A stretch of 64,000 bases of DNA from Planctomycetales bacterium (GTDB taxonomy: Bacteria > Planctomycetota > Planctomycetia > Planctomycetales > Planctomycetaceae). Below, piece by piece: positions 2,100 to 12,163 of this stretch. Under the pieces are notes generated by a model, which was not told where the DNA came from, searched no databases, and saw only the letters and a program-made list of their open reading frames with translations. The DNA lies in the NCBI GenBank assembly GCA_026400835.1, contig JAPLOA010000049.1:1-64000 (forward strand), read 5' to 3'. The position numbers were made by a program, and so were the translations under genes. The number at the start of each line of letters is the position of its first letter. Positions within the stretch are counted from its first letter, which is position 1.

Positions 2100-2173
2100 G
2101 GGGCTGTAGCTCAATCGGTTAGAGCAGCGGACTCATAATCCGTTGGTTCTCGGTTCAAGTCCGAGCAGCCCTA
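2100..2173 (+). tRNA. tRNA with CAU anticodon (elongator Met or Ile2)
   Basis: A full cloverleaf can be drawn: acceptor GGGGCTG/CAGCCCT (with a G1-U72 wobble), D stem GCTC/GAGC, anticodon stem GCGGA/TCCGT with loop CTCATAA (CAT at 2134-2136), and T arm CTCGG-TTCAAGT-CCGAG, with discriminator A73. No 3' CCA is encoded. There is no C1-A72 mismatch and no three-GC anticodon stem, so it is not initiator tRNA. Elongator Met and lysidine-type Ile2 cannot be separated by eye. Its 3' half is the attachment site of the element that follows. Confidence 0.93.
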
Positions 2174-2177
2174 TTTT
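2129..2177 (+). repeat. attL: tRNA 3' half plus 4 T
   Basis: The 49 bases from the anticodon stem to the four T just past the tRNA are identical to 12115-12163. This copy belongs to the complete tRNA, so integration preserved the gene. Confidence 0.93.
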
Positions 2178-2200
2178 GTAAAGCCTTGTTCCTGAAGACG

Positions 2201-3379
2201 TTATGCTTCGGATTCAAGGCTTTCTTCGTTTGCTGTTTCGGGTCGTGGTAGCGATTTGGTAGAAGAATCGAGCTTCCGGTCGAAGGCCGACCAGACAGCT
2301 TCCGCCATATCATCAGCGTTCGATTGAACGTAGAAGGTCAGCGTCGTTGTGATGGAAGCGTGTCGCATTAGCTGCTGGAGGACGTGCGGCTTTACCCTGT
2401 CTGCCCAACGAAGGCCAAAAGACCTCCGAAGGTCGTGAGCGGAAGCTGTCTTCTTCTCCGCGACCTTCACTCCAGCCTTGTTTCCGATGGAGCTGATAAT
2501 CGGGGACACTGTGTCGACCCTTGCTGGTTTTCGGCTGTTCCGCTGCCACTTCAGCTTAAAGACCAGTCCTTCCCGTTCGGACTCCGGAACTGTCTGGAGA
2601 AGCTCCGCTGCCTCTGGAGCAAGTGGAAGGGTTCTGTCCTTCCCGCCTTTCTCTGCCGTTCCCTGAATTTGGAGGAAAGGTCTTTTCCCTGACAGGTCGA
2701 CCATTAGGTCCTTCGGGTTATCCCAGCTGAGCTTCAGAGCTTCCCCAAGTCGAAGGCCGGACCACCAGAGACCCTTCAGAAGGAACTTCCAGCTTTCGAC
2801 CTGTTCGGCTCCAACCACCTTCCCGACATTCGACAGCATTCGTTCGAATTCTTCGGTCGTGACTGCTCTTCCTTTCGCTTTGCCGGAGCTGGTCCCCTTC
2901 GGCATTCGGATTGAGGGACAGTCCATAAGCAGTTTCTGACCGACTGACCAGCGAAGAGCGGCTTTCAGGTGTCGAAGGTGACGTGCCACAGTATGTTTTG
3001 ACAGTCCTTCGGCAAGGCAGAGGGTCGTGAAGCTGTTCAGCTTGTCTTCTGTCACAGACTGCAAAGTCGAAGGACGGAGCAGCGTCTCCAGCTTCTTAGC
3101 AGCTTCCTGAAAGGCTTTGACAGAAGCCGGAGCAAGGTCGAACATCCCTTCGGTTTCGTACTTCTTCCGGAAGTCCTTCCACTTCATCTTCCGCGTTGCT
3201 CTCCATTGCCCTTCCCGGAGTTCCGCTTCGATTCTTCCGGCTTCGCGTTCCGCTTCCCGTTTGTTTACGGTTCCCAGCGTCTTGCGATGTTTGTGTCCTG
3301 TCCGAGGGTCGGTGAACTCCGCTTCGAAGTTCTTCCGTCCTTTCCGTTTGAAAATATGAACCTTCAGAGAATTGACCAT
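2201..3379 (-). CDS. int: Tyrosine recombinase (integrase) of the element
   Basis: This 392-residue tyrosine recombinase catalyses site-specific integration into and excision from the tRNA gene. An N-terminal arm-binding-like domain (1-60, 'KTLGTVNKREAEREA') is followed by a SAM-like core-binding domain (about 80-165) and a catalytic domain. The catalytic set is visible: R210 in 'SGLRLGEALKL', a lysine in 'AEKGGKDRTLPL' (244-250), H315-R318 in 'AHDLRRSFGLRWA', H340 in 'LMRHASITTT' and nucleophile Y350 in 'LTFYV'. The ATG has a GGAG ribosome-binding site 8 bases upstream. The stop lies 24 bases from attL, the usual arrangement in tRNA-targeting islands. Confidence 0.95.
   Translation of the reverse strand: MVNSLKVHIFKRKGRKNFEAEFTDPRTGHKHRKTLGTVNKREAEREAGRIEAELREGQWRATRKMKWKDFRKKYETEGMFDLAPASVKAFQEAAKKLETLLRPSTLQSVTEDKLNSFTTLCLAEGLSKHTVARHLRHLKAALRWSVGQKLLMDCPSIRMPKGTSSGKAKGRAVTTEEFERMLSNVGKVVGAEQVESWKFLLKGLWWSGLRLGEALKLSWDNPKDLMVDLSGKRPFLQIQGTAEKGGKDRTLPLAPEAAELLQTVPESEREGLVFKLKWQRNSRKPARVDTVSPIISSIGNKAGVKVAEKKTASAHDLRRSFGLRWADRVKPHVLQQLMRHASITTTLTFYVQSNADDMAEAVWSAFDRKLDSSTKSLPRPETANEESLESEA
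2246..2265. promoter_or_regulatory. Candidate integrase arm-type site, left end
   Basis: The 20-mer TGGTAGCGATTTGGTAGAAG contains two direct TGGTAG boxes 11 bases apart and recurs exactly at 11968-11987 near the right end. It overlaps the 3' end of int. The arm-site role is inferred from duplication near both att sites. Confidence 0.45.
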
Positions 3380-3588
3380 TTCACTTGCTCCGTTTGCTGT
3401 CGTTGTCTCTTCGCTTTTCGTTCCAGCTGGAGCAGAGACAGGACTCCAGTGAAATCCCAGGATATACTTTTGACCGGTTGAAGCGTAACCTCATTCCGGT
3501 TTTATTCCGTCTCCCGAACGGCCTATCAGCCGCTGCGATCTCATTGAGGTTTCTTTTCTGGAGCACCTGCCAAACAAGGAATCTAAGA

Positions 3589-3981
3589 ATGCCTTTTTTT
3601 AAAGTTCTGGCTTCCCTGTTTTTCGGTTCGATCCTGATACTGTTCAACTATTGTCTGGCTATCACTTTGGGTGTGGCCTGCATTGAGAACTTTTTCAACA
3701 AGGAACTTCATTTTCCAATCTGGCATGCACCTGACGGTGTGGTATGGGGTTTTGTCGCACCGTTGTCCTGGAACAACATTTTCTTGATCACTCCGGTCCT
3801 GACGTTCAGGATTTGCTGGATGGCTGTCAACGATGACGCCCCGCTTGAGTGGTGTCGACGTAACCGATTGAGCTTTCTGCTTGCATTTTTATCACCGTTC
3901 ATCAACTATTTGATTGTCGCAACCTTTTGCGAGTCTTCCGGGACGGCGGTCAGGTTTCTTGTCTTTCCGATAGCACTCTAG
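3589..3981 (+). CDS. Small integral membrane protein, unknown, opposite-strand cargo
   Basis: This 130-residue protein reads against the flanking element genes. The ATG at 3589 is preceded by AAGGA with 8-base spacing, which favours it over longer upstream non-ATG starts. Three to four hydrophobic stretches are visible: residues about 4-30 (starting 'MPFFKVLASLFFGSILILF'), about 45-72, and about 95-125. The protein should therefore sit in the inner membrane. No family is recognised. Its isolation, inverted orientation and locally T-richer sequence resemble a phage moron or cargo gene, such as a superinfection-exclusion or defence membrane protein. That is a guess from context only. Confidence 0.6.
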   Translation: MPFFKVLASLFFGSILILFNYCLAITLGVACIENFFNKELHFPIWHAPDGVVWGFVAPLSWNNIFLITPVLTFRICWMAVNDDAPLEWCRRNRLSFLLAFLSPFINYLIVATFCESSGTAVRFLVFPIAL

Positions 3982-3986
3982 GTTCT

Positions 3987-10825: not shown

Positions 10826-10848
10826 GTTCGGATACCTATCTTCCGAAC
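10826..10848. promoter_or_regulatory. Inverted repeat abutting the start of the 423-aa gene
   Basis: GTTCGGA (10826-10832) and TCCGAAC (10842-10848) form a perfect 7-bp inverted repeat with a 9-base spacer, 2 bases before the ATG. It would cover the ribosome-binding region, so either operator or mRNA hairpin control is possible. Confidence 0.45.
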
Positions 10849-11216
10849 ACCTGAAGAAAAGCAGCAGTCCAGAGCGGTCAGGTTTCCGCCTCTTCGCCCG
10901 CTAAAGCTAGGACTGCTTCTCAACACCTATTCTGCCATCTCTTCCGACATTTTGCCACGAAACAAACTCAGCATACTGCTTCAGCTGTTCCCATTACCGG
11001 CGGAGAACTGCTTCGCGAAAAAGGACCCGTTAACCGGCTTCGCTCCGGCGGCGTTTGATTTTGTGGAAAAACGCACGCGACTAAAGGGCGGTTCTGGCGT
11101 TTCGTCGGCTCCAACATTTTGGCCCCATGCCTCTTGTTGTTATTGCCATAAATGCCTGTGTCATGGACAAAAAAAGAGCCATCGACCACCACTGCCGACG
11201 GTCGCAAGTGCTGGGA

Positions 11217-11828
11217 GGGACCCGGATATTCTCCAATTTTGTGGACGCACACACGTGCGGGCACAGGGTATCGCCGGTCGGCGTTTCAGGCTTTCGGACC
11301 ACCCCCGACCCCCCTCCGAAAACAGCAAGAAAAATTCCCGAGCGGCACAGGATATCGCGAGGTCGGCATGATCCAGATTCTGACCACCGCCCCACACCGG
11401 CCCCTTCCCCGAAGAAGAATCTTCCGGCGGCATGTTGTTGATTGCCTGGGGGAATCCTTAGAGACACATTCGCTCCGCAGCGTACCCCGCATTCACCACC
11501 GGCGGGTCCTGGGAGGACCCATCGACGCACCGCCCCTTACCCCGAAAAGTGCCGGACGGACGAACTTTCTTTTGAGGCCCCGGGACTGATTCTGGCGTAT
11601 CGAATGCCTGAAACCTCAGAGGGACCCACGTGAAAAGTTTTACCGCCGGACTGTGTCTATCGTGATTCGGGACTTCTTCGACCGTATCGACCGTTCAAGT
11701 GCAAAGGGGACCCAAAAGGCACACCGCCCCTGACCCCACGCAACACGCCCTGTCTGCTGTAAGCAAAAGAAACTGTAGAGCTGCTGTCGTCGTATGTGGT
11801 AAGGCGGCAAATTGCCACAGGGGGACCC
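11217..11828. other. Repeat-rich non-coding block of the right arm
   Basis: No convincing gene exists between 10849 and 12114. The block repeats three short motifs. GGGACCC lies at 11217, 11621, 11707 and 11822, with GGACCC at 11515. CACCGCCCC lies at 11385, 11528 and 11722, the last two continuing as TTACCCC and TGACCCC. A longer unit, GGCACAGG-TATCGC-GGTCGGC, occurs near 11260 and 11344. A hairpin GGGTCC/GGACCC sits at 11504-11520. The minus strand is rich in G4 runs. An origin with iterons, a packaging site or a large structured RNA are all compatible. Confidence 0.5.
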
Positions 11829-11967
11829 GTCGTTCGAACCCGTTCCTTGCCGGTGTTGCAAGCTGCGGCTGGATCGCCCACCTGTCCTCGAATTAAACCC
11901 AACCCGACAGCGTTCGACAAGACCTTAAAGCTCCATCTGGTCTGAGTGTCCCAGAGTCGTTTTTGGT

Positions 11968-11987
11968 TGGTAGCGATTTGGTAGAAG
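11968..11987. promoter_or_regulatory. Candidate integrase arm-type site, right end
   Basis: This is an exact copy of the 20-mer at 2246-2265, with two direct TGGTAG boxes. A third, inverted box (CTACCA) lies at 12011-12016. It is non-coding here, which makes a protein-binding role more likely. Confidence 0.5.
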
Positions 11988-12114
11988 GTGAAGACCTCCG
12001 AAGGCCTTTCCTACCACTTTTCCAAAGCCCCTCGAAAGCCTTCGGCGTTTCAAAAATCCAGTCTTTTTCCAGCTGGAATGAATCCCCACGAAAGCCGTCG
12101 ATAAGCCTTCGCGG

Positions 12115-12163
12115 GGACTCATAATCCGTTGGTTCTCGGTTCAAGTCCGAGCAGCCCTATTTT
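12115..12163 (+). repeat. attR: partial tRNA copy
   Basis: This is an exact copy of 2129-2177. Only the anticodon arm to 3' end of the tRNA is present, without acceptor 5' strand or D arm, so it is not a functional tRNA. Confidence 0.93.

Follow-up and report, generated by a model that had tools for sequence, protein, structure and literature searches.

A family-A DNA polymerase carried by a tRNA-integrated planctomycete island, a probable member of a recurrent class of self-replicating elements

Here, we describe an element inserted in a tRNA gene of a Planctomycetales bacterium, at positions 2129-12163 of a 64,000-nt stretch of DNA (GCA_026400835.1, contig JAPLOA010000049.1, positions 1 to 64,000 of the forward strand), which we refer to as the window. 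Judging from its sequence and from that of its relatives, this element is an integrative self-replicating chromosomal island that belongs to a class recurring in Planctomycetota and neighboring phyla, a conclusion to which we give a probability of about 0.6. It carries its own family-A DNA polymerase (PolA), and our best reading is that it is a family-A analog of pipolins and that it may have spread as a phage satellite. An integrative self-replicating element that uses a family-A polymerase is a better description of it than a decayed prophage. What is new here is a contrast in iterons, short-motif repeats found directly before PolA, between bacterial PolA loci and phage loci.

Results

The element is integrated in a tRNA gene and encodes a DNA polymerase

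As the original prediction had it, the element is bounded by exact attachment (att) repeats derived from a tRNA(CAU). Positions 2129-2177 and 12115-12163 form a 49-bp direct repeat without mismatch, with a spacing of 9,986 bp, and a blast search of the first 20 kb of the window with the 3' part of the tRNA recovered the repeat (E = 6e-24). ARAGORN finds a single tRNA in the 64 kb, with anticodon CAU, which is called Met, Ile-CAU being also possible. Because this sole tRNA of the window spans 2100-2173, its 3' part coincides with the left repeat, and the right repeat is a displaced fragment. The tyrosine integrase, the att repeats, and the restored tRNA are those of a tRNA-gene integrative element (genomic island), which is present in one copy in its own genome (G000) and shows no jump in GC content.

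Ten open reading frames (ORFs) of the element were scanned with Pfam and PHROGs, and seven with NCBIfam, while ORFs 3385-3981 (+), 11081-11530, and 11657-11920 were outside these scans. Genes for an integrase, a family-A polymerase, and a primase-helicase, which had all been predicted, show clear Pfam matches (Table 1), and residues 53-199 of the primase-helicase also match the "DNA polymerase/primase" PHROG (1e-9). PolA likely starts at the GTG at 6281, which overlaps the helicase stop codon as GTGA, in a frame that is open up to 6347. Other predictions stood in part. The single-stranded DNA-binding (SSB)-like protein has a confidently predicted oligonucleotide-binding (OB)-like fold, to which that of PrgE of plasmid pCF10 is closest, but its only family match is weak. 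Similarly, the zinc-ribbon matches are below Pfam cut-offs, and the presumed helix-turn-helix (HTH) gene at 9029-9334 has no Pfam match; a relative of its product (43%) is encoded immediately upstream of the integrase in another island of this genome, the one at a tRNA-Arg. The structure predicted for the 423-residue protein is of low confidence, with a predicted local distance difference test (pLDDT) score of 34.8. The variable segment contains most of ORF 3385-3981 (+), a possible membrane protein as judged by eye, and part of a small ORF at 3381-3647 (-).

The predicted lack of virion and transfer genes was borne out within the ORFs covered. The Pfam and PHROG scans of ten ORFs gave no structural, terminase, or transfer family, including no capsid or portal between the att sites. 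No relaxase or transfer families were found among the ORFs scanned with the three databases, and no PolB family (piPolB) was among the matches of the scanned ORFs, where the polymerase matches DNA_pol_A. No small terminase subunit (TerS) was detected in the window with a hidden Markov model (HMM) built from two sequences or in the Pfam and PHROG scans, and no window ORF matches AlpA or HTH_17.

Table 1. Features of the element and of its integration site in the window
Feature	Position	Strand	Basis
tRNA gene, anticodon CAU; integration site, left intact by the element	2100..2173	+	ARAGORN
Left att repeat (tRNA 3' part plus 4 bp)	2129..2177	+	Exact 49-bp repeat
Tyrosine integrase, 392 residues, 3' end towards the tRNA	2201..3379	-	Pfam Phage_integrase, 8.6e-16
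Variable segment, absent from the sister-species copy	3510..3985		Unaligned gap in the blast match with G004:C605
Family-A DNA polymerase with 3'-5' exonuclease domain	3987..6281	-	Pfam DNA_pol_A, 2.5e-34; DNA_pol_A_exo1, 5e-7
Candidate origin of replication, with GTCGAC present eight times over 140 bp, in blocks of six and two	6297..6436		7-mer repeat score
Archaeo-eukaryotic primase (AEP)-like primase/PriCT_2/DUF3987 helicase	6275..8275	-	Pfam PriCT_2, 1e-13; DUF3987, 4e-44
SSB-like protein, predicted OB-like fold	8357..8725	-	Weak DUF669 (E 0.1); confident OB-like fold prediction
Possible zinc-ribbon protein, start uncertain, overlaps next ORF	8751..9131	-	Zinc-ribbon matches below Pfam cut-offs
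Small probable DNA-binding or excisionase-like protein	9029..9334	-	Inferred function; no Pfam match at limits used
423-residue accessory protein	9552..10823	-	No Pfam, PHROG, NCBIfam, or PADLOC match at limits used
Distal stretch of ~1.3 kb, no convincing gene by eye	10824..12114		Inspection
Right att repeat (displaced tRNA fragment)	12115..12163	+	Exact 49-bp repeat

Related islands are found in Planctomycetota and other phyla

A scan with a PolA alignment, with one genome per species, identified 63 loci in bacterial genomes (L211-L273), which are mostly planctomycete, with some from Lentisphaerota, Verrucomicrobiota, Kiritimatiellota, Bdellovibrionota, and others. These loci, with flanks of at most 10 kb, were annotated using integrase, primase, SSB-like, and PolA queries together with ARAGORN. 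In 16/63 loci, an integrase match and a tRNA or tmRNA gene are no more than 300 bp apart, the integrase being on the 5' side of the tRNA in L219 and L240. The window fits a layout in which PolA is followed by integrase and tRNA (L212, L213, L214, L216, L218, and L224), while in others the tRNA and integrase come before PolA (e.g., L222, L225, L227, L229, L244, and L250). The order of a homologous SSB-like gene, primase, PolA, integrase, and tRNA is repeated in L212 and L213, where the SSB-like proteins are 33 and 32% identical to that of the window. These two loci have a PrimPol/AAA primase, whereas the window has a DUF3987 primase-helicase and a different integrase family; from these comparisons, the core parts of the islands are mixed between members. 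L216 and L218 display a primase-helicase, PolA, integrase, and tmRNA/tRNA, with a different small gene at the SSB position. In L212 (positions 1-13917), two different islands sit in tandem at one tRNA-Val, the first with a DUF3987-like helicase and its own integrase.

Matches to the window primase occur in 32/99 genomes, its own included, mostly via DUF3987, and the relatives of the window integrase in other tRNA islands, including L123 of its own genome, go from 46% (L117) down to 32% (L122). The original prediction proposed a search for its gene set in other genomes. The core of integrase, PolA, and primase does recur, with an SSB-like homolog in L212 and L213, but the 423-residue gene appears nearly unique. 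It has matches in 2/99 genomes, its own included, and across the phylum only its own genome in 392 has a match (with at most four candidates per genome scored). Two partial homologs were seen, one in a Verrucomicrobia contig (L219, 32%) and one at L028:1-843 that also carries a ThsB-like TIR domain (4e-37), which hints at a defense-like accessory role. In another island, L227, a BstA-type abortive-infection gene (16232-17335) lies ~4 kb downstream of PolA.

Iteron arrays before PolA are common in bacterial loci and rare in phage loci

In the islands, short-motif repeats are found directly before PolA, and after the primase or primase-helicase where one is recognized. The motif differs from island to island, being AGTGTCGC in L214, GTGTCGAA in L229, GGGGATCA in L219, GTTGGCAA in L227, and ACCCGACG-like in L221, L222, and L105 (the latter on the same contig as L220), and repeats before PolA are also visible by eye in L216 and L218. 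The array of the window has a 7-mer repeat score of 49, which is above all 200 shuffles (mean of 6.3 and maximum of 27).

The 700 bp before PolA contain a cluster of four or more 8-mers in 18/52 bacterial loci and 0/80 viral loci, although PolA is no more than 700 bp from the end of the locus in 5 of these bacterial and 12 of these viral loci. When this region was ranked against other blocks of its own locus, p was ≤0.1 in 27/47 bacterial loci versus 1/68 viral loci, in a test that excluded 18/133 loci (short flank or few null blocks) and in which the viral set includes near-copies. With viral near-copies removed, dinucleotide shuffling of 46/50 rows of the PolA tree gave p ≤ 0.05 for 26/34 bacterial and 0/12 phage loci (Fisher, 3e-6). 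For hand-picked close loci, the shuffle test was positive in 11/15 versus 0/12 phage loci (1.8e-4), and it was positive in 9/11 of the tested tree loci, besides the window, that have an upstream primase match, with L212 and L225 negative. On this basis, the iteron array before PolA is a candidate replication origin of bacterial PolA loci.

The window copy has a shortened helicase and a selected polymerase

When aligned with five relatives, the window helicase departs after residue 612, where these proteins have a further 202 to 299 residues. It ends with 54 unrelated codons reading through the eight GTCGAC sites, and its DUF3987 match covers positions 1-218 of 364. The "near-complete replisome" of the original prediction thus does not hold for the window copy, whose helicase is without its C-terminal part. 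Because of this loss, and because the frame runs through the array, the window copy may be replication-defective, i.e., integrated yet unable to replicate alone. Its AEP motif II looks atypical by eye versus two AEP relatives (L363 and L364), and the helicase has no match among solved structures at E 0.01.

PolA appears to be open and under purifying selection. Relative to the copy in a sister species, 33 synonymous and 8 nonsynonymous codons differ of 783 (pN/pS of 0.08), and its exonuclease and polymerase motifs are readable by eye. The O-helix of classical Pol I has an NFG..YG motif, and the consensus in our PolA family alignment is NFGxPGG. The sister-species copy is in G004, a genome of the same genus, in which a 3,048-bp contig (G004:C605) matches the window at 2818-3509 and 3986-6340, with 98% nucleotide identity and with the 476 bp in between missing. 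Since a flanking host hydrolase gene is 91% identical to its G004 counterpart over 1,787 bp, the two species resemble each other more in the element than in the host DNA, a pattern that recent transfer would produce. Regarding an empty integration site in sister genomes, their tRNA copies have different surroundings, and the G004 contig that carries the hydrolase gene stops 162 bp beyond it.

Related polymerases are found in phages, and few virion genes were found in the islands

Using an 11-sequence PolA alignment, we found viral PolA relatives in 446 stretches of IMG/VR, the best 80 of which were used. Taken singly as queries, neither the primase nor the PolA of the window had found a relative among viral contigs. 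The closest IMG/VR PolAs are 34-41% identical, many with an upstream primase match, and the large terminase subunit (TerL) is present in 19 of the 22 records searched whole (17-106 kb), plus a twentieth via phmmer (L133). Named phage and plasmid records contain only distant PolA relatives, with ≤28% identity among the matches listed. None of the plasmid-borne PolAs covers 80% (identity is 23-28% among the matches listed), and there is no near match to the element among 72,556 plasmid records.

In a PolA tree (n = 50), the window, its sister copy (L211), L212, and L213 form a clade without phage (SH-aLRT of 99). The phage rows need 3 label changes versus a mean of 12.3 when shuffled, with phage L131 pairing with island L227 (starred) and phage L157 with island L225 (92). 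Since the islands do not sit together within a single phage clade, PolA has probably been exchanged between islands and phages, in one direction or the other.

The original prediction named terminase genes at the same place in homologous loci as the mark of a deletion remnant, and the TerL of related phages was found by phmmer in 0/63 loci, within flanks of at most 10 kb. When 65 accessory ORFs from 13 loci were compared to PHROGs, the matches listed (25/36 families) included BstA, primases, Sak4, HTH, TerS, and TerL, with no capsid, portal, or tail. The one TerL match (4e-8) is untraced and is absent from 31 ORFs checked singly. Among PolA islands, a TerS was found only in L212, whose second island (9,558 bp, with a 19-bp att) adds it to the SSB-like/PolA/integrase order. 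This TerS has a PHROG match (9e-5) and a Pfam Terminase_4 match below cut-off (0.0013), and it is homologous (39%) to a TerS in L123. A second TerS candidate among PolA-island relatives was rejected because its PHROG match proved to be a helix-turn-helix.

The same genome harbors other islands

In the genome of the window, L123:1481-11395 (G000:C39) is a 9,840-bp att-bounded island in a tRNA-Thr, which is capsid-carrying and satellite-like, with a major capsid (Pfam, 2e-30), TerS, a DnaB helicase, an O-like initiator, a topoisomerase-like gene, and an integrase. L122:1306-11342 (G000:C77), in a tRNA-Arg, is a 9,961-bp att-bounded island with a PD-(D/E)XK nuclease and mostly unknown genes. The integrases of both are related to that of the window. 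A remnant resembling the att and the 3' end of the integrase adjoins a tRNA-Lys (G000:C10:36258-36520; L002, L025), with 81% identity to the window, and the genome has one weak TerL match (8e-4). The capsid/TerS island L123 and the related integrases make a phage-linked life plausible for the window element.

On the other side of the integration site, at 17-1436 of the window and adjoining the tRNA, are an ORF with a DndE match (1e-42) and one whose SMC match is subthreshold. Together, they may mark where a DNA phosphorothioation (Dnd) cluster ends.

Discussion

The anatomy of the element shows integrase-driven insertion at the 3' end of the tRNA gene, with the gene restored, and excision would produce a ~10-kb circle. 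We propose that members of the class replicate from the iterons that directly precede PolA, typically with the primase-helicase on the other side of the array. Given their families and positions, the primase-helicase would open and prime the origin, and the proofreading PolA of the element would copy the origin-primed DNA, while the OB-fold protein, from its fold and position, would coat single strands. The element has no recognizable transfer machinery and would spread by hitchhiking, for which phage particles are the most plausible vehicle, the alternatives being DNA uptake or conjugation in trans. In the window copy, the PolA gene has remained open and selected, and the helicase C terminus has been lost in a change ending at the array.

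How does the element compare with known systems? Phage-inducible chromosomal islands (PICIs) are small att-bounded islands with replication genes. The window element resembles PICIs and capsid-forming PICIs in being a small att-bounded island, and L123 has both capsid and TerS, but the window element differs from them by its lack of packaging or capsid match and by its own DNA polymerase. The IMG/VR phages have a related PolA and many have a nearby primase, but unlike the islands they mostly encode TerL and have no iteron array before PolA in the loci tested. Pipolins are integrative elements with their own replicative polymerase (piPolB), att repeats at a tRNA, a tyrosine recombinase, and variable cargo (PMC7385651), all of which the window element shares, except that it encodes a family-A polymerase alongside a separate primase-helicase and carries an iteron array, and that no piPolB was found. 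PICMI satellites (phage-inducible chromosomal minimalist islands) of Vibrionaceae are small islands with an integrase and a DUF3987 primase, in a model that needs AlpA and Fis (PMC10803314). The window element is also a small island with these two genes (its DUF3987 domain being partial), but it is at a tRNA rather than fis, has no AlpA match, and has its own PolA, while no satellite DNA polymerase gene is named in the part of the PICMI description consulted (PMC10803314). Tycheposons are described as tRNA-associated, cargo-carrying elements of 4-200 kb with a tyrosine recombinase (PMC10872708); they thus share tRNA association and recombinase with the window element, but in that paper neither "DNA polymerase" nor "primase" is mentioned. 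A literature search for phage satellites in planctomycetes found no paper, and among the papers listed by other searches no title or abstract start describes this element class. Of the original proposal of an undescribed class or a phage satellite, the first part is supported by recurrence and by this absence of description in the titles and abstract starts listed, and the second part is an inference, with a TerS found in one PolA island (L212).

Several observations weigh against a self-replicating class with an iteron origin. The window array sits inside an open frame, its rank within the element is only 0.083, the array of the close relative L212 is weak (p of 0.07), and L215, L225, L226, L233, L239, L244, and L245 are negative in the shuffle test. 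In a set of 18 DUF3987 loci, mostly without a PolA match (PolA shares the frame in L037 and L042), iterons are downstream in 6/18 and upstream in 5/18, and a general origin downstream of every DUF3987 gene was thus rejected. The loss of the helicase C terminus could make the window copy a remnant. As for the sister copy, its 3,048-bp contig comes from a metagenome and could be mis-binned, and no primase match was found in G004. Finally, att repeats made of the tRNA 3' part were found in only 9/34 loci tested (a 13-bp match in L036 being excluded).

The att-bounded spans are 9,986 bp (window), 9,961 bp (L122), 9,840 bp (L123), 9,809 bp (L033), 9,558 bp (L212), 10,453 bp (L218), 10,924 bp (L253, in which PolA is partial), 11,326 bp (L035), and 6,604 bp (L038). 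The clustering of island sizes near 10 kb is suggestive, but a constant ~10-kb size as proof of packaging was rejected because of the scarcity of att repeats and because 39 further loci, some refetched, added only one pair (87% identical), which is 18,559 bp apart (L353).

These sizes bear on whether the element is a phage satellite. As such, it would excise and replicate upon helper infection and end up inside helper particles, its own polymerase making it independent of that of the helper or host. We regard this as possible, if on the unlikely side. In its favor are the several islands of 9,558-11,326 bp, exceptions being those of 6,604 and 18,559 bp, the second island of L212 with its TerS, and L123, which has a related integrase, a major capsid, and a TerS homologous to that of L212; a DUF3987 primase is also part of the PICMI satellite model (PMC10803314). 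However, the window has no TerS by the two-sequence HMM, no capsid match, and no known hijacking gene, a TerS was found only in L212 among PolA islands, and no helper was found, the own genome having only its weak TerL match. An integrated plasmid or integrative element with no phage tie, spreading by conjugation in trans or natural transformation, would fit the plasmid-like iteron array and the fold similarity with PrgE of pCF10, but we consider it unlikely, because no relaxase or transfer family was found among the scanned ORFs, plasmid records hold no near match, and plasmid-borne PolAs are only distantly similar.

Quite improbable, in our view, is an origin of the element by deletion from a prophage with this replication module. 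The shortened helicase, the 1.3 kb that looks noncoding, the viral contigs with PolA relatives (many near a primase, and 19/22 of the records searched with TerL), and the two phage PolAs pairing with islands are in its favor. Yet, related-phage TerL is absent from the bacterial PolA loci within their flanks (apart from the untraced PHROG match), the nearest PolAs are those of islands with a similar compact order, compact att-bounded relatives of 9.6 and 10.5 kb exist, and the 12 phage loci tested have no iteron array. We therefore favor an integrative self-replicating island. Extending this reading, we suggest, tentatively and at slightly less than even odds, that Planctomycetota and their neighbors harbor a widespread PolA-based class of self-replicating integrative elements with element-specific iteron origins between primase-helicase and PolA, that some of these are satellites with their own polymerase, and that the tailed phages with a related polymerase descend from, or exchanged genes with, the island lineage.

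Small islands and satellites normally borrow the DNA polymerase of their host or helper. If our reading is correct, a proofreading polymerase and a dedicated iteron origin would make these islands a bacterial counterpart of self-synthesizing elements, built from family-A parts. The class would supply a concrete origin and initiator for testing, and PolA with adjacent iterons and a tRNA integrase would be a marker for finding such elements in Planctomycetota. It also raises the question of whether phages took their polymerase from islands or the reverse.

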